This document shows positions 36,256 to 49,165 of a stretch of DNA of 64,000 nucleotides, one piece after another. Under the pieces are notes generated by a model. It made no database searches. It saw only the letters and a list, made by a program, of their open reading frames with translations, and had not been told where the DNA came from. Position numbers and translations under genes: made by a program. The stretch covers positions 248,001-312,000 of the forward strand of contig OY744464.1 of assembly GCA_963556145.1 (NCBI GenBank). Direction: 5' to 3'. Each line of letters starts with the position of its first letter. Position 1 is the stretch's first letter. The DNA comes from Hygrocybe punicea. Taxonomy: Eukaryota; Basidiomycota; Agaricomycetes; Agaricales; Hygrophoraceae.

Positions 36256-36379
36256 ATCCAGGTCTAACCATTATCTACATGTTGCCTGTGAATGCCAAGG
36301 TCATAGAGATTACCCCTTGCATCAATTCCTGACCGTAAATCCATATGACTTGTGATTAAACAATGTACATCACAATGCA

Positions 36380-36625
36380 AAATCCGTTTAAACACATGTT
36401 GTTTAAACACACATTCATGAAGATTCCATTTATTCTCTCTGCTCCAATCAGCATGTTTAAACATGCAGGTTTAAACCATTTACACAGATTTAAATGCTTA
36501 AACAGACATTCTCTGTGCTCCAATCCATGTGTTTAAACATACAGGTTTAAATATACAGGTTTAAACCATCAGCAGAAATTCAGATGATTAAACAGACATT
36601 ATCCAATGTACTGTTTAAACCGTTA
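36380..36625. repeat. GTTTAAAC cluster downstream of the KDZ gene
   Basis: The 8-bp palindrome GTTTAAAC occurs at least seven times in about 240 bp, often as CAGGTTTAAACC or TGTTTAAACAT, within a diverged ~75-bp tandem unit (TCTGTGCTCCAATC... repeated near 36440 and 36515). It lies directly 3' of the KDZ transposase stop. Such dense palindromic words are typical of subterminal transposase-binding regions, but no terminal inverted repeat was found. A smaller cluster is at 48961-49010. Confidence 0.5.
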
Positions 36626-36636
36626 AAACATCAACT

Positions 36637-39600
36637 CTAGATAATATCACCTTCCAAGGACTTTGTAAATGATATCAGGTCCTCGGCGCGCATAGCAGCT
36701 ACATAATCAGACAAATGGCCCTCAGTCAATCTTACATGCATATATCCAGCCTCGTCAAGTTTCTTCTTGCAGTCATTCTCCATTCGTCCATACATGTCCG
36801 CCTTTTGCCTTGCATAAGCAACATGGCCATCCGAAGAACCTGTCCACAAGACTGAGAGCTGGGACCAAGCTTGTGTCATCCTCTTGAAGCTCCTTATAAC
36901 TCTTAGAAACTCTGCAAGTTTTTGCTCGACCTGTTCCTGCCACCGTTGCATTTCGGCTTCTGCACGAAACCACTGCACACGGTCACCTGTGTGTTGAAGC
37001 AAATTTATGAGTAACCATCTTACGTTTTGTAACAGCCTTACCTTCAGCCTCCCACTCCACCATCTCTTTCGCTGACATTTTACCCCAACCCCCCATGTGC
37101 CAAAGCCATCCTTCCTTTCCCTCTTGTGCTGTCGGAACTACTGTCATATTAAGCATACACTTTGAAAGAATAAATACGTCCATACTGGTGGTACCACTGA
37201 TAAGGTTTCCATCTTGTTTCCTAGCTGTAGTCTTTGCTATTATGGTTGAGCATTACCAAATGCTATACTGATGAAATTGTCATTCATTACCTTTATTTCG
37301 TCGACTCATTTGTGTCCCACTAACTGAAATAAGATGTGTGAGCAATGCCCAACAAGAAACAATGACATCGGCAACACTCACTTGGCAACAGTTCCATCTC
37401 TCCTTGATTGGATACTTGGCTATCCACATGCACCCCGTGCAGGGTTAGATCACCCGTACTGGCCATTTGTCCATGCATCTGCCACAGCTTGCCATCTGTC
37501 CGACGTGAATCACCCAAACCACGGCCGCGCTGTCTTGACTTCATGAAAGTGTCCTCGATGGTGAGAGGAGGAAACGGTGACTCAGGATCATTGCTGTCAA
37601 CAGCCCCAAGCAATATCAGAGCAAGGCGGGCAGATGCATAAGTTTCCATATGATGATCTCGTCGACTCTGGGCATCTCTAATATAAGATCCTGACTTGGT
37701 GTTTTCAGCCTGTCCACGTGCATTCTTGCGTTTCCGATCCTGGATTGCCGTCAAGGTCTTGACTGCAGATTGTATTGCACGTAGCGCATCACATGCTTCG
37801 CCTTCTCGCAACTTTGCCTCTTCGATACCAAGCGCTATGGCCTCGACGGTCTGTTGCTCTTCATGCTCGAAATCTGACGGTAGGAAGAGCTTCTCGTGTT
37901 CAACCTCACATGAACGTTGTCGAGCCACTGCATCTCCAGCCTTGGGCATCAGAAGTCTCTGATCATCACGCCATTTCATGATGCGCAGTCGCAACTTCCC
38001 TCGCCGAGTGCCAATCTCCTTTTCAAGTGACGCAAGGTGGTGTTCACGATCCTCCGCAACTGTTGCTCTCAGTTTTCGTCTAAATACAAATTATCAGCAG
38101 TCAAGCGAAACACCACTGAAACGTTCAGACTCACTGTGCATCCTGAATTCGAAGACCCTCATTAAGAAAGGCAGCGATGGAACCTTGGGGAATGTCAGTG
38201 TCCGAGAACTTGGACTCCTGTGCAAGCATATGCTGATAAATTGCTGCCTGAGAAGGCACTACAGTATATGTGAGTTTGTGAGTTCCAAGTGCTATCAATG
38301 TTACGAAAGACTCACCCTTTGACTTGCAATGTCTGTATACACTCTCCGTCTCTTTCCCCTTTTGCCTGGGCTTACGATCCATTTGATCCCATGCGTCTCG
38401 CTGTTCTGCATATAAAATACATAGCCCTCGAAAATGATCACGCTTTCGAATGTATAATGCTTTAGCAAGGTTGAGGTCGTGTAACAAAGTGGACGCTATT
38501 GCCACCAGTCAATGAAGGTAATGTTAAAGTTCGTGAGCCACTCACCCATTTTCATTGTCTTGAGCCAGTTCCAATCGCCGTGGTGGTCGATCAATGTGTC
38601 TTGGCGATGGCCATTGTTCATTTGTCTGACATGAGGACCAAGTTGATTTGCTTCAGGCCAGTAGTGTTCAGCTGTCTCCCCGTGAAAATGGCCAACACAG
38701 GGCATATATGCGGTTGCAAAGGTGTAGAGACACGTCTCTTTGTGCCCCTGGACATGAAGGGCTGGAACTGACCACCGCATCCTACACACAAGAGGTGCCA
38801 TATCTGGAAAGAACTTCTCAAATCGTTTGATGACGTGGACCGAGTATGAGCAGTTGCTGTCGTAGGAGCAGATATGGTCAACGTCTGCCTCCTCATCCTG
38901 AAGGTTGATGTCTGTTTCCTCCGGTGAAGACCGTTGACGAGCGCCATGTGCAAGCGCAAAGTCAGTATTCGCAAATCTGTTCATAATGTAGGGTAGCGAG
39001 TGGAGGAATCGTAGTGAGACACTGCCACATACCTTTCACCAAATTGCATGTCAACTGACGACCAGATGAAGACGTGACTGCATTGACAATTCACTGTCCC
39101 AGTGATATCCATATTCTTGAATTTCTTCTTATCTTGTTTGTTGACGGCTTTCAGATATGTACATGTTGATTTCTTAACGCCATGTAACCTAATCAATAAA
39201 GAGTTGCACGTTCATATTGTATAATGGTCTAACCTCCTCCGACTTTGGGACATTCCTTAAGTATTCCTTGTAGAGATCGTCCTTTGGGAAATACGCATTT
39301 CCCTGAAAAAGCGATATGTCATCGGGATCACTGTTCTTCTTCATCTTGTTGCACTGGAAGTTGCCGTCAAGGGTCTTCTGTGATTGGTTGAGATGCCTGT
39401 GGCATCTCCTATCAGCAAACATATTCGTCAACACTGCAGTGGGTCCCACCTAAGCTCAAATGGTGTTGGTTTCCATCCCTGCTCAGTATTGAAACCCGGC
39501 TCTGGGCATGCTGGGCAGTGCACGATAAGGTTTCCCGGTCTACGATGTGGTAGCACACGATCGATGCCATGGGCTTGTCCAAGACGCTTGCGAAGGGTGA

Positions 39601-40584
39601 GCCACCGCCAAACTCGGACAACACGGAGGAAATTCGCATAAGGATCCTGGAGAATAGCATGAGACGCGAATATAATAATGTCTTTAAACGCACTGGTACG
39701 TCTGCTGTAAACGCGTTGTCCGTCAGGTGCCTGAGAGCTCCAAAGTAATCGTAGGCTGCCTTTTTCGATTCTAGATTGTGAAGATGGAACTCTTGGAGAA
39801 CCTTGAATGTGAAGGCAGTCTTCGTGTCGCGAGTAGTTGCAGGAAATAGCCGAGCCCGCATGAGCTGCTCAACCTTCGTACTAGCCCCAAGGCAGCCACA
39901 GACAGCCAGTCGTGTGGCGTGAATGCCATTAGTGTCAACAACAGTGAAGAGAATATTGCTCTTGGGGTTGGGGCAACGAGCTCCGTTGTGACCAAGGTAT
40001 ATGGTGAAACCCAACGATGAGATATCATGGCGAACGAAAAAGCCCCGTTCAGCATCCCAAACTTCACCCCAATGGAACGGCAAGTTCTGGTGCGCTTGAA
40101 TAAAACAATCTGTGCACGATGCACAGTACTGTGTACAATCATGGCATTGTGTTGTTCGGACGCCATTGTTGCATGAGCAAAGCGAACCAACTTGGGGATC
40201 CGCCTCAAATTCGATGATAAGCCGTAGAAAATTGTCAAAGTGCCCATCGAAGTCCTCCAGGAGCCGTGAATTCTAGTAGTAGAGTTGTAGTTATACTTTT
40301 AAGCGCTAACATACAGAACAAACCTGTGTCTGCTTTCTAGGCAGGTCATCTTTGTCATCCATCAGGTCAGGCTGGTGGCTGGCATCATCGGTGATCAGGG
40401 GAGAGAGCGTAGTGATCCCCGTGGTACTCGAATCGGATCTGTGTGTCGTGGTGCGTACTTCCATACCAGAATCTCCAACGGTCCGAAAGTGTGCTTTATG
40501 GACGTGTGGGTTTCTAATTCTTGCAGCCTGCCGGGAAAATTGCAGTTCCTCTTCTTCCACAGAAGCTCTCCGTTTTCGGCTCAT
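36637..40584 (-). CDS. KDZ-family transposase with CxC2-like cysteine cluster
   Basis: Starts MSRKRRASVEEEELQFSRQA at 40584. Exons in order give: the cysteine cluster (LCSCNNG, QCHDCTQYCASCTDC, LPFHWGEVW), YDYFGALRHLTDN, NFLRVVRVWRWLTLRKR, VHCPACPEPGFNTEQGW, HLNQSQKTLDGNFQ, YLKAVNKQDKKKFKNMDITG with SHVFI, and RFEKFFPDMAPLV. MRWSVPALHVQGH, GHFHGETAEHYWPEANQLG and RQMNNGHRQDTLIDHHGDWN follow, the strongly conserved KDZ core. The C-terminal ~450 residues are helical and charged, ending at 36637. Small introns (for example around 39450, 39230 and 39000) join these without visible lesions, so the gene looks intact. KDZ transposases mobilise large fungal DNA transposons. The BAH-PHD and Ulp1-X genes follow on the same strand. 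Confidence 0.8.
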
Positions 40585-40793
40585 GTCTCTGGGCCTAATA
40601 TTGAGAATGATGAGTATGGAACAAACACCACCCCAGTCAATCACGGATACGCACTAGGGATGGGCAATCAAGTGAGGTGACTGAAATCAATGGGTTGAGA
40701 GTACGATGCAAAACGAGGAACAATAGACTCAACAGTATGTGGCTTGAGGTGGGTAAATGGCGATCCTTAGATAACATGGCCATGGCAGTGCAG

Positions 40794-41586
40794 AAGAAAT
40801 GACGCAAAGTCCAATCTCTTGTGAGAGGGAGCAACAGACACAAAGTCTAAGTCACCGCCAACCAGGATGACGCGAAGTCTACTTCCTGAGTGTGCATAAG
40901 GAATACAATGTCCACAGCTTCGTCACCTGGCGAGGTTTGTATTGCCCTCCCAACCTCGAGGGGTGGACAGCCATGTCCATTGACGTGGGTCTGGCCCTCC
41001 CGAGGTAATGAGTGCACACCCAAACTTGCCATTTTCCCTGTTACGGTTGTTCGGGAGGGCGCGTGACGGAGGTCATACGGTTCCTGTGGTTGCTGGTGCT
41101 CCTTCCCGATTCTGATGATCCAGGGCAAGACCCGGAAGGCGAGGTCAAGGGTGTCGAAGTGGAGAGTCTCGCACGTTTGCGATGAGACGATGACGGCGCA
41201 TACGTTGACGAACCAGAGTTGCCCGATGCGCGAGAGGCTGTTTTGCGGAGTCAGTGAGTGGAATGTTTAACGGTTGATGTAATAGAATACAAATAGCGTT
41301 GGTGGTTCGAAACAAGTAGAGTCGCAGGACGACTACAATGGGGTTGCGAGTGGATGAAGGAGAGGGCTTAAGGGTACAGGGAGCGTGTAGAGTTGTATTG
41401 TAGCGACGCATACCGATGATCGCGCAAAGACGAGTTCTAGAATGAAGTGTTCGTCAGTAGTGAATGGATATATAGATAGAAATGAGACGACACGAAGTCT
41501 AATCTCCAGCAGAGCCAGCAACTGACGCAGAGTCTAAGTTGCTGCCGTGGCCCATCCAGATTGACGCAAAGTCTAGATCCAGGATG
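40794..41586 (-). repeat. Constant-loop, variable-stem hairpin group, left (six hairpins)
   Basis: Hairpins at 40794-40820, 40827-40859, 40863-40888, 41484-41506, 41516-41544 and 41553-41586. Read on the minus strand the loops are variants of TTAGACTTTGCGTCA, and each loop contains GAC...GTC which can pair to leave a five-base apical loop. Stems differ: CAGGA/TCCTG, GAGA/TCTC, CAGCAAC/GTTGCTG, and others with A-C mismatches or a bulge. The group lies upstream of the KDZ transposase start at 40584, with loop orientation the same as that gene. Confidence 0.7.
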
Positions 41587-41653
41587 TGCCAGTGCACGAG
41601 AATGAGTTTGACACTTACCAGCGACGGTTGGCTCCTCTGAGTCGAAGACATAG

Positions 41654-43318
41654 TGTTACATTTCCATCTCCGCTTCCGACCCCGATGCCCATTCCAATAC
41701 CTACCATGACGATTCTACACTGCCACCTTCCTTTTTTATTTCATTTTGTCCTTTGTCTTTGTTTCGATATCATTGTTTCTTCATTCGGACATCCTTGTAC
41801 TTTCTTGTTCTTGTTCTCTTTTTGTCCCACCTTCTAGAACAATCCAGACCGACCATGGACATATCCACGTGACCTCGTTGTACCCGAATAGTCTCCTTGC
41901 CGACGGATGTCACCGACATTGTCTTTTCCCTTCGATATCTTGTTTACGCTATCCCACGACAAACCGATCACAATGGCTGTACTCCCGAAACAGCTCATTA
42001 CCGTAATTATCATTGGCAGCATCGCCATCACTTTCCTGATCGGTTTCTACATTGTTATGATCTATCTTTGGCATCGGCACCGAAACCCTTCCGCCATCGA
42101 TACTTCCGACTTCCACCTCAACAATATATCAACACGTAATTGACAATTGCCATTCTTGGATATATGGTTTCCACTTTCGTATTCCGTGCCTACCATTATC
42201 CTCCCTGACGATCCGACGACATTCCTCACCTGCTTGAGCACTCTGAACAATCCTCGATCACACGACAATTCACTGTTCCCTCCAAGCCGACCATCGCCGA
42301 AGCACATACATTCAAACTTCGACCATAGACCACACGACTTCCCAATACAGTGACCCGACCCCTATCGTTTATTGTTCACACGACACCGCTTCAATGCAGT
42401 ACCCGACGACTTGTTCCCACAGCTTGTCACTCGTGCCATGACTCGAAACCTGGACCCACATTCATTTATCCTTTTCCATCTTTCATCTTGATACCTCCCA
42501 CACTCGTTTACAATGATACCCTTTCTTGGACGAATACCGACATCAAGTGGACCTTCTTGTTCCACAAACAGGACAAGACACCGCTCCTCGATATGTCATC
42601 AACAGACATCGTCATCCGGTACAGCTTATGCTGTTCATATGTCTGACCTCGACTAGCCCATTGTCCTAGTTGGTTTTTTCCTCTATACATTCCTTCATTT
42701 TCTTTCATACCAACCTTGCCGCTATATCCATGCTACCTCAAGACACCCTCATTGCCAACCCCACACTGGACGATACCCATCTTTGACCCGACCGTGCAAC
42801 GCACTTGCCAAACTGCGCACTTGCCTGTTACAGCAAGTGTAGACCCTGAATTGGCAATTCTGCTTGTCACATGATCCGATGACAAATCATCCGAGTCATC
42901 CGGACCTCTTCTATCCTCAATGACACCCGGGCCTCCAGTTGGATCGCGAGAACATCGACATGAGGACACCTCATGTACGCCTCATGGTGAACACATGGTA
43001 GAGTTGGACATGTTGTGGCTTCATGGTTGTATTCCTATTTACCTCCCCTCAAGACCAGCCACTATATGTACTGTTCTTGTTGTTGGTTCGGACTTTTTCT
43101 TCTTTTCCTTTCCTTACGTTTAGTCTGGTTCTTGGGGCAGACTCATCTTGTTTTGGGTAACCCCCACGGCTCGCAATGACATTAGACCTTGACCCCCCCT
43201 TCTTAGCAGTGTTGTCTTAGCTGTAAGCAACAATGAAAGCTGCTGTTCTCTCCTCTGGAAGCCGATCCCCTGTTAAGTTGATTGTTGCCGGAGCCCGCTG
43301 CAGAAGCGATCCGTAACA
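41654..43318 (+). mobile_element. Solo LTR, 1665 bp, target duplication CATAG (family A, copy A)
   Basis: Ends TGTTACATTTCC and GCGATCCGTAACA, flanked by CATAG at 41649-41653 and 43319-43323. A TATA-like CACTATATGTACTG near 43060 lies close to the 3' end, so about 1.4 kb would be U3. It carries the micro-ORF 41973-42143. The last ~30 bp (TTGTTGCCGGAGCCCGCT...GATCCGTAACA) closely match the 3' end of the gypsy LTR at 55838-56394, placing family A near that gypsy clade. It sits between the two hairpin groups. Confidence 0.85.
41973..42143 (+). CDS. LTR-encoded single-span membrane micro-protein, copy A (56 aa)
   Basis: Reads MAVLPKQLITVIIIGSIAI, continuing TFLIGFYIVMIYLWHRHR and ending in a Ser/Asp/Asn tail with LNNISTRN. 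One predicted transmembrane helix spans about residues 8-33, followed by a basic HRHR patch, which by the positive-inside rule suggests the tail faces the cytosol. It differs from copy B at a few residues and from copy C mainly at synonymous sites. It lies in the U3-like part of the LTR, upstream of the TATA box, so it would be carried at the 3' end of a full-length element RNA or need its own promoter. Confidence 0.6.
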   Translation: MAVLPKQLITVIIIGSIAITFLIGFYIVMIYLWHRHRNPSAIDTSDFHLNNISTRN

Positions 43319-43465
43319 CATAGTGAGTGACTACAAATGCTACATGACCGAATCCAGATTACAAATTCTGTATAAGCCTTTTTTCGTCAACAAATCAGCC
43401 CGTCGACTTCTACGTTTCCATTCAAGTAACAGTAAGTCATACCCGTCTTATCCCAGTCTTCATAC

Positions 43466-43816
43466 CCAGAACTAGACTCTGTGTCATTCTGGTGGAGTTG
43501 AGACTTTGACTTTGCGTCGGTCTCGACTCACAGCGAGAGATTTGACTCTGCGTCGTCTCTTGCACGTACCTCGCAAAGCTGTTCAACATAACTCACAATC
43601 ATTATTCTAGGTTGCCTTGTGGTTCACCAGTATGCCACGTCCCGCGGCATCCAGTGCAAGACAAGTTTCGAGGTGGTAGTTTAACGGTTAGTCCTTTTAT
43701 TTCATCCAACTTTGTGCAATCCCGGAATTTGACTATGCGTCGTTCCAGCAAAGTAGGGACTTTGACTTTGCGTCAGTCTTTACTCACCGCAAGAGATTAG
43801 ACTTTGCGTCGTCTCT
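43466..43816 (+). repeat. Constant-loop, variable-stem hairpin group, right (six hairpins)
   Basis: Hairpins at 43466-43492 (stem CCAGAA/TTCTGG), 43495-43529 (GAGTTGAGAC/GTCTCGACTC, ten pairs, one wobble), 43533-43563 (GCGAGAGA/TCTCTTGC, eight pairs, one wobble), 43724-43746 (GGAA/TTCC), 43752-43784 (AGTAGGGACT/AGTCTTTACT, ten pairs, two wobbles) and 43792-43816 (AGAGA/TCTCT). Loops read TTTGACTTTGCGTCG or close variants on the plus strand. The group directly precedes the gene at 43839, with the last hairpin about 22 bp before its first recognisable exon. Confidence 0.75.
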
Positions 43817-43838
43817 AACCCTCTTCCTTGAATATTAG

Positions 43839-46107
43839 AGTGACTGCTGTCTCAGATTCTGCCGTTAAGTTCATTGGTCCTCAATGTCCATCGATCCGCT
43901 GGAACTCCTTCAACAACGCCGACCTAATGGTACAGGTTGTGTCTATGACAAGAGCTTATACTTATTCATATCATCCTACAGGACCTATAGGCCCATTTGA
44001 TGCTCGTGTTGCTGCAATCATAGATGGTTTCCAGCCCGGAGTAAATGACACGATAATCACATCACCCAACATGGACATCATCTATAAGCCTCCGTTAGGT
44101 AGACGCCTGGTTCGTTTAAGAAATGATTGCCGCTACGCAGACGACGATTACATGTTATGGCCGCAACCTTTTATGGAGGAATATTGCTGGTTGCCCGTTA
44201 TTCCTCGCTGTCCCGAGGATCCTGCTGATCCACTTTCGATCATGTGGTGGAATCCCACTGCTGCTGACTTTATCCCGACAAGTCGGCAATTTGTAGAGGG
44301 TCTTGGTAAGCTTGAAATCTCAAAGGCGGTGAAGTTGCGGGTTGTGTGTGAGGCTCTTTTTGCAAGGATTATGGATTACCAAAAATCAGGCGGAAATAAT
44401 CCCGTTGTGCTGAATCTCCAAGTTGCTTTGCACCACTCAATATGTCGTTTGGAATCTCTCACGACGTTTTACAAGGAGATGGTGTTTGGTGTCACTGAAA
44501 CTCAACGTTGGTACCTGGAACTAGTCGCTGTCGTGGACTATATCACGATTTTCAAGCCACGAATGGAAGGCAGTCTCCCGAAAGCCGAGCGTGTGGCTTT
44601 TGTGGTTGGCGCATTCACCGAGAACCCGCAATATGTTCAGGCCGCCTTCGATGCTGGTATTCCTGTGTGGTTCATGCGACCTCTTCAAACTTTATCTTTG
44701 AGCGTGAACATTATGTCTGTTACTACCCTTCGATCTCCCGAAGATTTTCTCACAATGACCGATTGGACCGAGAGCCCATCATTCCCTGTCATTCACAATG
44801 GGTCAAACAACGTTGAAAAGGTCAGGCAAATCCACAATTACGCCCGCACACGCTTCCAGTACCCAGACCCTTTCGCTGTCATCGACGATCCATTTCTTGT
44901 AGGAGGGAGTGTACCAACAGTTACAGCGACGGTACCAATGGCTGAGCTCGAACGCCCTCGCACGGTTAATGGAGAGAGTGTACCGATGGTTACTGAGAGA
45001 GTATCAGTGGCCGAGCCCGAACACCCTCGCACCGTTAAGGTCACCAAGAAAGCTCGGAAACAGTGCAGTGCCATTAGTTCAGGTATATTATCAAGTCTCT
45101 TCATGTATCAATGCTTATCGCTTCCTGCAGTGGGAACCAAGAAATCTAATTCTAGCTGGAAGCCCGTTCAAGCCAAGTTTTGAGACCCTGACAGTGACCT
45201 CATCCCTCCGTCAATCTTCACATGGGCCAATGCCCTTCTCCACGTTAATACCGAACCTTCTCGACTGAAGGCTCTGTGTAAGAGTAATCCACACGATGGA
45301 CACTTTGTTTTCCCTGATCCCAGGCTCTTGGTGGGCCCGAACACCGAGGCAAGGCAAGCCTTGTACCTCGTCAATTGGTTGGACCAGCGCCAACTATGGA
45401 TATCTCGCGTATCTCGTGCAGACTCTGCTGCTCGAGCTTTGTCAAATCAAGAGTGGCGCGACTGTCTATCAGGTCTATGTTCAGAGCATAACAAACAAAT
45501 GACCTCGACTCGGGCTAGCCAACGCCGTGCCGACATCATCACACTGATCGGCCATTTGTACAAGGGGTCCGGTTTGGTTGCAGACATGCCCCGTACCCAA
45601 ATCTTTTGGAAAGAGCAACAACTGATGGCGCCTGACGGGATGTTGCCTGATCGCAGGATTGTCCAAGAGGTGCTGTGGGAGCTGTATGAGCTTAACTTTC
45701 GTTTCGAATTCCTGGCCCTGGATGGCCGAGCCCATAAACCCAGAATGCCCTCAGGGATCGAACAAGAACCAGAGTTTAGCACCCGCCAATACGAACTTAT
45801 GGCATGCTTCATGGCATCCAACTCTGGTGACCCCAGTTTCCTCGTAACTCAGATCCCTTCGAAGAACGGTGGTCTCGCTGCGGACGACTGGCGTGAGCGT
45901 CTCCAATATCTTTTGGCGATGCACAAGGTAATGAGAACTTGGGATTGCCAACCACCAGATGGGTTTGAGCTTGGGTTTGGAGCCGTTGATACTTTCACAG
46001 AGCCAAGCGTCTCATTGCTTGAAGAAGCGATTGCCACTTTCTACACACAGACTTTTTTTGATTACTTTGGACGTGCGGCCACTATTCCTCACAAACTCCC
46101 GTTTTAA
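43839..46107 (+). pseudogene. Uncharacterised agaricomycete protein with one premature stop
   Basis: The recognisable exon begins after an acceptor-like AATATTAG and reads about 415 codons (KFIGPQCPSIRWNSF, YMLWPQPFMEEYCWLPVIPR, RQFVEGLGKLEISKAVKLR). A 48-nt intron follows (45083-45130, GTATATT...CTGCAG). The next exon reads WKPVQAKF, then TGA at 45181-45183, then in the same frame DPDSDLIPPSIFTWANALL and on to 46107 (LLVGPNTEARQALYLVNW, EVLWELYELNFRFEFLALD). The family is common but uncharacterised in mushroom genomes, so the continuous frame beyond the TGA marks a single nonsense change. The first exon, with the true start, is not certain (an ATG at 43632 is a candidate). Confidence 0.5.
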
Positions 46108-46520
46108 CTTTTAGCTGATGCCATTGTTTCTCCCCATCTTCGTGTAATGTTCTCGTCTCGTAATGTGACTATTCATGACTTCTCATGTGTGGCATGTGAA
46201 TTGTCTGCTCACGGTCATCTTTCACCACAATGGTTTGCAACTAACGAAGATGAAATGAACTGATGTCTATCTTCGTCTGCAGAACTGCCTGTAAGTAATA
46301 TTATTTGCTTCGTGACATCATCTACTGATTCAAGGTACATTTGCTGTCACATTACAGAGGGAACAATAACAGTTACAACAGTGCATGCAATGTCTGAAGG
46401 AGGTTTAAACAAGCGGTGTGGCTTTCTTCGATGAGTGGCCTTCACATTGACTTCAAGGTCAGTTCATATAAAGGTTCTGAATCGTTCCTGTTTCATCAAA
46501 TCCACACCATCCTTTCGTTA
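46108..46520. other. Gene-free spacer
   Basis: Nothing supportable beyond a GGTTTAAAC word near 46402. Confidence 0.35.
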
Positions 46521-46522
46521 CT

Positions 46523-48698
46523 ATGGTCGGACGCAGATCACAGTTTACTCCTGCTCAGGACGCATATATTAACAGCTACATGCAAGCATTCGAGGCCAAG
46601 GTGTACGAGCTTGATCCTGACTTGAAAGGAATGAAGGGTGCTTCCTTAACAAGGTGGAAGCAGGACACTGCGGAAACTATCAAGTCGTCATCTCTGTTTC
46701 AAGACCAACTGCTTTGCGAAGGGGATGTGACTCTGACGACCTGGACCATGGTATGTCAATTCACGTCATGATTCAGGGGATTGATTGGTTCTTCAGCGAA
46801 TCATCCGCAAGTTCACAAACCGCTTCAGCACTATGAAACGAAAAAGCCAGTCCACGTCAAACACTCATGGAGATCAATTTTTTATCAATCTCTCCTCAAG
46901 TGTTACTGGGCGCCAGCTCTATGAACAAGAACGAAAGAACGAGATCAATACTGAGGCTGCGAAACGTCGAAAGGATGCTGATACTGATGGGGGGCATGCA
47001 GGGTTTTACCAAGTCGTTTTGAAGGAGATGTGGGAGGACGAGGAGGATCAGCAGGCATATGAGAAAAGGGCTGAGGAAGTTGAAAGTGATATTCCTCGGT
47101 GTGCATTTCTTGATCTTTCCTATGGCTATGATTTAACACGACCGGGTCACCTTAGAAATCAGAAAGAGTTTATGAAAGCAGCATGGTTTGCCCTCAAGAC
47201 GCTCTGCCAGAATGGTAAGCTTGGCCCTGCCGAGATGATGCTGTTCTTCGCATTCCGTGATGAACATGGCGATCTCGATAGTGGCGTGTAAGTGCACCAA
47301 CCGGCCCTCTGTAGTGCCACACCTAATAAAATGACAGAGTCAATGCCCATTCAGTCCATAACAAGCTTGATATGAGATCCCAGCTCAAAGACTTCACAGA
47401 GCATTTCGAAATGCCATGGTTTCAGTATGCCGAAAGGGTCCTCCCTCGTGAGTTGCTGCATGAACTTGGACACGCTATGTTGCCTTAATCAATTCACCAG
47501 GACCCAGCATCAAGAGTGATGACTCCACAGACCTTCAAATTCCTCGTAACTCTGCAGGAATACCTTTGTTCCCTGCTGTCGAGTTCAACAAGATGATTTT
47601 GGGCGATATTCGTGCCATTCTGGAAAAATACTTCAGCACATTGTGGTGTAAGTCAGTCCAGTACAGCCTTCTGCTGGATTATTTCGAGTGATTACACCTA
47701 GGTCATACCTGGCCAGCCGATCAGCATTTTGCTGCAATACCTTGGGCTGATATTTCCGTTAACCCTTCCGACTATTATGATGTGCAAAGTTTCATCGTCC
47801 CAGTCAAACTGCAAGCGCCAGAGCTTATGTCACTTGCCCACATTATCATTCTCTCGGAGTATCTTGCTTCGACAGCTTCCAGAGACACTGATGAACAACC
47901 ATTTATGTTCCTGCAGAAGGCTGAGATTCTTAGATGCATTGGTGACCGTCAGGCTGACATTGAAGCGCAGCACACAGCTGGTGATGAAGAAGACAGCGAC
48001 GATGATGACACAGAACTTGGGGCCATTGCTGCTGGAGTGCACGTCCCACTTGTGCATGAGTTGCAGCGCAAGGACACAACAAGTGAGGCACCGGTGACAA
48101 GTGTCAGTGAGGCAGAGGATGGTGAAAATGCAGAGGAGAAAGTGGTAAGTGAGAACAATACTACAGAGAGGGTGCTGATGCAGAATTGCAGCATGAGAAT
48201 GCCACAAGTGAGGCTGCGGGGACAAGTGTTGGTGAGGCAGGGAACAGCAAAAACGCAGGGGAGAAAGTGGCAATAAGTGAGAGCCCTACTGCCAAGGAGA
48301 CACTGAGCAACGGCAAGGGTGGACAGGTAGGACATAATTCGGAGGAGATTGAATGCGAAAGCAAGAAGTCGAAGACACAGAGAGGCAGGACAACTGGCGG
48401 CATTCTTTTCAGTACACGAAGGACACGGTCTTGCGTTGCTGAGAACTCACGAAAGACACGATCTTCTGTTGCCGAGAACTCACGAAAGACACGATCTTCT
48501 GTTGCCGAGAACTCACGGAAAACACAGTCTTCTGTCGCCGAGAACTCACAGAAGACATGGAGCGCTCATGGTACAAGTGATGGGACTGTGACTCGTGGGA
48601 CAAAGCGCAAAGCGGCAGGGATTCAGGAAAATCTAGAGTACGCTATCTCCTCCTTTTCCTGCAGCAGCAGCAGAAAAACTGAACTACGGGTTGTTTAG
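46523..48698 (+). CDS. Uncharacterised agaricomycete protein, multi-exon, repetitive C-terminus
   Basis: Starts MVGRRSQFTPAQDAYINSYM, followed by a helical basic region with LTRWKQDTAE, which resembles a Myb/homeodomain-like DNA-binding helix set but lacks clear signature residues. Introns join RIIRKFTNRFSTMKRKS, FYQVVLKEMWEDEEDQQAYE, FLDLSYGYDL and GKLGPAEMMLFFAFRDEHGD, then (intron GTAAGTGCAC...ATGACAG) AHSVHNKLDMRSQL, FPAVEFNKMIL and HTWPADQHFAAIPWADI. The C-terminal part is acidic and ends in repeats of RKTRSSVAENS. The order fits an agaricomycete family I know only as hypothetical. Exons through about 48150 look intact; the repeat-bearing end is in another frame, so an intron or shift lies near 48140-48190. 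Confidence 0.45.
48417..48548 (+). repeat. Tandem 33-bp coding repeat (four units)
   Basis: Four units of CGAAAGACACGATCTTCTGT... (33 bp, 11 codons RKTRSSVAENS). Units 2 and 3 are identical, and units 1 and 4 carry a few substitutions. Length is a multiple of three, so copy number can vary without shifting the frame. Confidence 0.75.
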
Positions 48699-48960
48699 GG
48701 GTAGGCCAAGCAGCAAACGTGCGAATACACAAAATAAACGCAAGACGAGACACTGTATGCTTTAATCCTGTGTGGCATTAACCTGCTAACTTTCCAATTG
48801 TGCAGGTGGCTAGGATTGTGTTTCATCCGATTCAACAATGTTTAATCTGCTCAATGTATTTAATTTAAATCACTTCAACCATGTGTGTTTAATCCACTGA
48901 GCTCTGAATTTCGGATTCCATTAAATCCAAGTTTCATTACCCACTACTTAAATTACTCCT

Positions 48961-49012
48961 GTTTAAACACGTAAAATTAGCTGTCTGTTTAAACAAAGTT
49001 CTGTTTAAACTT
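48961..49012. repeat. Second GTTTAAAC cluster
   Basis: Three GTTTAAAC palindromes (near 48961, 48988 and 49003) in AT-rich DNA, with many TTTAAT words upstream (48830-48950). It resembles the cluster at 36380-36625. Confidence 0.45.
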
Positions 49013-49165
49013 GATTTGCATTATAAAGTACATTGCTTAAGCAAGACTCCTAGGGAGGCTGCTCTGGCGTAGCTGCAGATTGATTGCTTGATCAATCCCT
49101 CACTTGTACCTGCACAGCCCTTAGATTTGTCTATGGAAAGTAAGTGATAGATATTCTATAACATC

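Follow-up and report, generated by a model that had tools for sequence, protein, structure and literature searches.

Hairpins with a constant loop are one known means by which proteins mark RNA. In the iron-responsive element (IRE), the Smaug recognition element and the constitutive decay element (CDE), a constant loop sits on stems of free sequence and is read by one protein, as summarised in PMC11499389. RNA structure also bears on splicing in yeast, where Rpl22 and RPL7B are described as controlling themselves through splicing, RPL7B by way of intron secondary structure (PMC4838235, PMC12311795). Among DNA transposons, the Kyakuja KDZ elements of Agaricomycetes are reported to make 7-bp target duplications, to lack terminal inverted repeats and to end in CA..TG (main text of PMC12730594). 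Here we analysed a window of 64,000 nt from contig C6 (positions 248001–312000) of the 92.2-Mb genome of Hygrocybe punicea; all positions below are those of the window unless a contig is named. The window holds a KDZ transposon with two divergent genes, between which lie 12 hairpins with a nearly constant loop, arranged in four modules of three. We tentatively read these hairpins as RNA signals that act in cis from within four leader introns and are recognised by one protein that would couple the splicing of both genes.

Twelve hairpins in four modules

A preceding sequence-only reading of this DNA had reported 12 stem-loops with a shared loop and GAC/GTC pairing, and these are confirmed by both core matches and stem lengths. 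The core GACTYYGYGTC has 11 exact matches at the 12 hairpin sites and one with a single mismatch (43731). With up to one mismatch allowed, the window contains 18 matches against 6.5 expected, and none of 100 shuffles reached 18. The longest stem averages 7.08 bp over the 12 sites, compared with 2.93 ± 0.39 bp for shuffled flanks (maximum 4.17 in 2,000 shuffles). The hairpins, placed by stem measurement and alignment, are as follows.

40791–40824, minus strand: h1, type A, module LO
40827–40860, minus strand: h2, type B, module LO
40859–40892, minus strand: h3, type C, module LO
41479–41512, minus strand: h4, type A, module LI
41514–41547, minus strand: h5, type B, module LI
41553–41586, minus strand: h6, type C, module LI
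43462–43495, plus strand: r7, type C, module RI
43495–43528, plus strand: r8, type B, module RI
43531–43564, plus strand: r9, type A, module RI
43718–43751, plus strand: r10, type C, module RO
43751–43784, plus strand: r11, type B, module RO
43787–43820, plus strand: r12, type A, module RO

The constant part is best described as a fixed GAC/GTC stem that bears a 2-nt 5′ bulge (TT, TA or TG) and closes a TYYGY pentaloop, and nine columns are invariant in the 12-row hairpin alignment. Written as RNA, the loop is UYYGY in 11 hairpins and UAUGC (TATGC) in the remaining one. The base preceding the bulge forms a T-A or T-G pair with the base following GTC in 8 of the 12. In every hairpin (12/12), the loop lies on the sense strand of the nearer gene.

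The earlier division into two groups gives way to a finer arrangement of four three-hairpin modules, inverted about the element centre and drawn apart in this copy by a 1.66-kb insertion. Each module keeps the fixed order C-B-A in the sense direction of its own gene. The modules can be aligned with one another, linkers included, and represent a duplicated unit of ~105 nt. With the insertion left out, the central layout is symmetrical: left gene, LO, LI, ~140 bp, RI, RO, right gene. The hairpins are 4.5 and 5.2 kb away from the element ends.

Pairing in the stems

An alignment of all 12 hairpins (A1) has 82.1% of its cells paired and 35 cells differing on both sides, compared with 65.1% and 15.1 in shuffles that ignore the relatedness of the hairpins (0/500 as high). 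The covariation score of A1 likewise exceeds that of all 500 shuffles, and every one of the six slid registers falls below A1 on all these measures. At the inner positions, a hairpin's own arms pair in 66/72 cells (91.7%), arms of the same type from other modules in 179/216 (82.9%) and arms of other types in 275/576 (47.7%). The sequence-only reading had called the stems unrelated yet complementary. This is only partly right: the type B stems, and those of type C less clearly, do vary with pairing kept, but type A stems are conserved, and the stems fall into three types, whose same-type arms cross-pair at the 82.9% just given.

Permuting the 3′ arms within types takes this relatedness into account. 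The native summed longest stem is 85 against a mean of 67.2, with 68 of 13,824 arrangements as high. By the same measure, and counting the native one, the arrangements as good as native number 2/24 for type B, 3/24 for C and 10/24 for A. A count of paired positions under the same control is moderately unusual over positions 1–6 (504/13,824), with 862 to 1,080 of 13,824 for wider spans. Paired changes on both sides within types occur in five type-and-position columns only (B 3, 4 and 6; C 1 and 4). The claim that only pairing is conserved thus applies to type B, in part to type C, and not to type A.

The wobble pattern leans to RNA of the loop strand. On that strand, the summed stem length is 54 with Watson–Crick pairs alone, 85 when G-U is added and 58 when A-C is added instead. 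Several stems had been said to contain G-U-type wobbles, and over the six inner pairs we indeed count 11 G-U cells in 72 (13.7 expected from permutations); A-C cells number 2 against 7.9 expected and are depleted (P 0.003). Folding energies differ little between strands, with sums of −146.0 kcal/mol for sense and −134.8 kcal/mol for antisense. Folded whole, module RI reaches a z of −2.7 with all three hairpins formed, and LI a z of −2.1 with h6 and h5 as drawn and h4 in an alternative form.

Intron-like frames of the modules

Each module resembles an intron, and a frame of splice sites is seen for three of the four.

41437–41618, minus strand: module LI; GTAAGT, hairpins C-B-A, CTGAC, TTCTAG
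40767–40926, minus strand: module LO; weak GTGACG, hairpins C-B-A; 3′ end approximate (CTAAG used)
43432–43610, plus strand: module RI; GTAAGT, hairpins C-B-A, TTCTAG; no exact YTRAY after the hairpins
43687–43838, plus strand: module RO; GTTAGT, hairpins C-B-A, CTAAC branch point, TATTAG

The 5′ sites lie at nearly the same distance ahead of the first core: 45 nt for GTAAGT in LI, 43 nt for GTAAGT in RI and 44 nt for GTTAGT in RO. Over the whole 1.6-kb intergenic region, the sense strand has no GTDAGT hexamer besides these three. In a test devised after the sites had been seen, at least three of the four modules had a GTDAGT site in 24 of 20,000 shuffles, and in none were the sites within 3 nt of each other. 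At the 3′ end, TTCTAG follows the last core by 52 nt in LI and 56 nt in RI, while RO has CTAAC and then TATTAG at 28 nt past the last core. In 16/16 copies of the element, LI, RI and RO have identical 5′ and 3′ sites, and RO an identical branch point, which is weak evidence because the copies are so alike; the LO site varies.

Confinement to the element

The core alone is not enriched in the genome, since it matches 387 times against 509 for a reversed control. Flanks were examined for 12 matches outside the element (three of which, L003, L006 and L007, are one repeated sequence), and their stems measure 1–6 bp with a mean of 3.4. The comparison of stems with shuffled flanks suggested by the sequence-only reading therefore bears out the hairpins inside the element and, at these 12 matches, speaks against a hairpin property of the core elsewhere. 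Extending the core by TTW gives the motif TTWGACTYYGYGTC, which has 109 genome matches compared with 7 for the reversed pattern. Among the 100 of these 109 that were listed, 98 lie in copies of the element, and the two outside have stems of 2 and 5 bp. On these counts the TTWGACTYYGYGTC motif is practically confined to this transposon. The idea that a short element creates inverted flanks where it inserts is not supported by these data, given that the modules are alignable duplicates, that TTWGACTYYGYGTC is nearly confined and that stems at the 12 outside core matches are 1–6 bp.

A wider family within the genome was rejected on 30 CxC2 loci taken from the 150 matches. Eight of them carry the motif within 1,500 nt upstream, and every one of these eight is a copy of this element; in the remaining 22, no motif occurs there at up to one mismatch. 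A scan of those 22 loci and of the three nearest other KDZ families (L063–L065, 42–44% identity) for hairpins with a common loop word flagged L040, L043, L046 and L063, which by eye are ordinary or GC-rich repeats; in L063–L065 the motif did not turn up. Locus L062, adjacent to an 87% similar fragment, was rejected because the central region is absent from it.

A model built from the 12 hairpins (R1) was also searched: among the loci covered in this genome, its best match outside the element scores 16 bits (E 0.057; L041, with a 6-bp stem). The filtered search regained 9 of the 12 window hairpins at 32.6–40.5 bits, scores that prove nothing, as R1 was built from those same hairpins. Prokaryote relatives were also considered and rejected: 56 stretches with three consecutive cores look like simple tandem repeats, their flanks being repeated too. 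These stretches and one viral stretch contain 266 cores whose stems average 3.2 bp and reach at most 9 bp, and the best R1 score among them is 20.5 bits (E 0.0043, L119). Rfam gave no match above threshold in 40600–44000; its single match, at 17.9 bits (E 0.64; cut-off 75), falls outside the hairpins. Within the reach of Rfam, the statement that no such family had been described therefore holds for the sequence; it does not hold for the kind, as loop-constant hairpins are already known.

Possible roles of the hairpins

Hairpins that proteins read typically combine a fixed loop and fixed bulge with a lower stem of free sequence, as in the iron-responsive, Smaug and constitutive decay elements, and a position in introns of both transcripts would point to splicing. 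The proposal that loop and shape are read in a structured RNA or single-stranded DNA is the better supported half of the sequence-only reading, in view of the constant loop, bulge and pentaloop, the covarying B stems, the wobbles, the sense strand and the intron-like frames. In the coupled-splicing reading, two divergent transcripts would start in the ~140-bp element centre (insertion not counted), and each would cross two introns with a C-B-A hairpin set between the 5′ and 3′ splice sites. One protein would recognise each hairpin in the pre-mRNA by its bulge, GAC/GUC stem and UYYGY loop and would either repress or permit splicing of both transcripts jointly, and the lower stems would need only to pair. 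The sequence itself shows the hairpins, their modules and strand, the splice-site frame of three modules and the near confinement to the element; from there we infer the transcription start, the splicing, the binding protein and the direction of regulation. The reader would more likely be encoded by the element than be a general host protein, a choice made attractive by the motif being private to the element. In its furthest form, this would amount to a transposon-private RNA code, in which an element protein binds hairpins in all four introns and switches the splicing of both genes as a self-contained control of copy number; we regard this stronger version as rather unlikely.

Several results weigh against coupled splicing. 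In the frames, LO lacks a clear 3′ site, and its only 5′ candidate is a weak GTGACG at 47 nt. The antisense strand of the same intergenic region carries four GTGAGT hexamers, so that a lone 5′ site means little and only the constant distance speaks; the test of that distance was, as stated, post hoc. By eye, no frame was found that joins upstream exons to coding exons across the module introns, and these introns would therefore sit in untranslated leaders. In the stems, pairs with both-side change in A1 number 9 against 7.9 in shuffles (143/500 as high), type A shows no covariation beyond chance, and the difference of G-U over A-C is not significant with base composition allowed for (P 0.10 to 0.18). 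Only 4 of the 12 single hairpins fold at a z of −2 or less, and RO and LO, folded whole, come out without their three hairpins. The 16 copies are 95–100% alike and amount to little more than a single observation; segregating sites are not depleted in hairpins (14/372) relative to positions classed as other (49/1,250), a comparison that copies so alike make uninformative. As to the reader, a Pfam scan of eight window open reading frames (ORFs) and three ORFs of another copy found no RNA-binding domain, and the structure model of the right protein is poor (predicted local distance difference test score, pLDDT, 46).

The same introns could be structured without any regulator, with hairpins that shorten long leader introns and prevent misfolding and a common loop that is a relic of duplication. 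The hairpin introns measure 152–182 nt compared with 51 nt for one coding intron, inferred from the reading frame; three hairpins occupy ~100 nt, and the modules are indeed duplicates. Yet a spacer needs neither a fixed loop nor a fixed bulge, and the core has stayed nearly fixed (nine invariant columns) while B stems and linkers changed. We hold this account to be unlikely. Another possibility is that the hairpins are retained in the leader of the mRNA and influence its translation or stability in the manner of the IRE, which would agree with sense-strand loops that precede both coding regions and with a loop-plus-bulge architecture like that of such elements. This leaves the fixed-distance splice-site frame unexplained, however, and LI lies ~850 nt upstream of the left ATG; we give leader control little credence.

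Recognition could instead occur in the DNA of the divergent promoter, either at GAC-N5-GTC half-sites in double strands or at extruded single-strand or cruciform hairpins, serving transcription, replication or transposition. The core is an imperfect palindrome and the layout is symmetrical about the presumed promoter, but recognition of a double strand has no need of paired variable flanks, the sense orientation holds for 12/12 (though the modules are duplicates) and the hairpins are far from the ends, where GTTTAAAC palindromes crowd instead. Sites in DNA appear quite unlikely. A last account assigns no function at all: a palindromic module would have multiplied within the element, its pairing kept or restored by template switching. 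The extensive same-type cross-pairing (82.9%) and the mere five columns of paired both-side change within types speak for it. Template switching should, however, yield perfect complements, and 11 of 72 inner pairs are G-U; moreover, the splice-site frame, the fixed loop and the constant C-B-A order in four diverged modules would need another cause. We consider the absence of function quite unlikely.

The carrier transposon and its genes

Genome searches with pieces of the window set the boundaries of the element, and Pfam and open frames define its genes.

36335–49061, no strand assigned: KDZ transposon carrying the hairpins, 12.7 kb in the window copy with the 1.66-kb insertion included (from copy boundaries, ends, duplications and domains)
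38496–40585, minus strand: left gene; CxC2 in ORF 39412–40083, KDZ transposase in ORF 38496–38984, ATG at ~40585
43828–45183, plus strand: right gene, first part; window ORF of 451 aa, uncharacterised Agaricomycete family
41656–43317, no strand assigned: insertion of 1.66 kb, flanked by the 8-bp direct repeat ACATAGTG (41648–41655 and 43318–43325), between the inner modules and outside the hairpin system

The left gene encodes a CxC2 domain (PF18803, E 2.9e-35) and a KDZ transposase domain (PF18758, E 4.7e-25), which together place the element in the KDZ superfamily and identify it as a KDZ transposon. Related proteins at 72–83% identity align over ~60% of the CxC2 exon. The CxC2 domain is very abundant in this genome, with at least 150 scored matches of 261 candidates and several high-copy families. 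On the right, a 762-aa frame without internal stop is open in 11 of 15 full-length matches, and in the window copy it is broken at 45183–45328. The right protein has five relatives at 27–30% identity (in Grifola, Marasmius, Paramarasmius and Pleurotus) and one more at 22%. A search of viral contigs with both element proteins found no relative.

The window copy starts with GTAAATCC and ends with GGAGGCTG, and inspection of the two showed no terminal inverted repeat. Including it, the genome has 16 copies, 95–100% alike; the 1,001-bp left hairpin region is present in all 16, at 98–100% identity in 15 and at 95% in one. Ends were compared in seven copies. The termini are GT..TG in 7/7, and identical 7-bp target duplications flank four (ATGACTA, CAAAAAC, ACTTTTC and GATGCCC); the other three, namely the window copy and those at C2:7.90 Mb and C6:0.12 Mb, lack identical 7-bp flanks. 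Assignment to Zisupton was ruled out by duplications of 7 bp, not 8 bp, together with the absence of inverted termini. The 7 bp to the left of the window copy, CCTGACC (36328–36334), differ from its own right flank and are identical to the 7 bp on the right of the copy at C6:114914–125971, as if ends had been exchanged between these two copies.

Palindromes of the form GTTTAAAC stand at both element ends (36386–36620 and 48961–49010), seven on the left and three on the right, with one more inside. The window has 11 against 1.05 expected, 10 of them at the ends, and they are likely subterminal transposase-binding repeats. The hairpins were rejected as such end-binding repeats: they lie 4.5 and 5.2 kb inwards, and GTTTAAAC occupies that place.

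In all 15 other copies compared, the site of the 1.66-kb insertion is empty, with ~41655 directly joined to ~43318. The insertion splits the presumed divergent promoter of the window copy. A fragment 92.6% like 42503–43318 is found elsewhere in another copy (L020), in its left gene beside a part like window position 39968. The 95% identical copy (L024) has 69 base differences in the central region, of which 45 are C-to-T or G-to-A and 34 of these at CpG, as expected of decaying methylated DNA. Between LI and LO, positions 41044–41293 are 77% identical to C7:2214865–2215112 (L025), with a partly common frame (..ASGNSGSST.APSS.HRKRARLST..); this segment looks like a captured piece of a host gene, comprising an intron end and an exon.

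Comparison with known systems

The element shares with Kyakuja its KDZ and CxC2 domains (CxC2 as assigned by Pfam), its 7-bp duplications and its lack of terminal inverted repeats (PMC12730594). Unlike Kyakuja as described there, it shows no TET/JBP gene in a scan of eight window ORFs and ends in GT..TG rather than CA..TG, on which ground we file it as KDZ, Kyakuja-like, and not as Kyakuja. Hairpin arrays go unmentioned in the main text of that paper, where the words ‘hairpin’ and ‘subterminal’ occur 0 times.

The hairpins follow the plan of constant loop and free stem set out for the IRE, the Smaug recognition element and the CDE (PMC11499389). They differ from all three in the UYYGY loop closed by GAC/GUC, the intron-like setting, the grouping in sets of three and the limitation to one transposon family in the genome. 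The IRE also has a fixed bulge; its loop is CAGUGN, and that of the Smaug element is CNGG. Identity with either was rejected on the loops, UYYGY in 11/12 hairpins and UAUGC in 1/12.

The yeast Rpl22 and RPL7B cases, as described in the papers cited above, concern single genes with a known ligand; here, hairpin arrays occupy two genes of a mobile element and the ligand is putative. Our searches of open-licence papers turned up no arrays of one loop-constant hairpin in the leader introns of a DNA transposon's two genes. Introner-like elements are near-identical introns in many host genes, and the fungal ones, like stwintrons, are multiplied introns of one origin and are said to be more structured. 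The modules have in common with these that they would be multiplied introns of one origin. Unlike them, they are four diverged copies inside a single element and, judged by the TTWGACTYYGYGTC motif, have not spread through host genes; with 98 among the 100 listed matches (of 109) inside this transposon, introner-like elements were rejected as an identity.

With 12 natural variants per element, the requirements for loop, bulge and stem are directly testable. The P-element has a regulated intron. If control of splicing were confirmed here, the hairpin introns would be a parallel to it in an abundant class of mushroom transposons, whose CxC2 domain matches at least 150 times in this genome.

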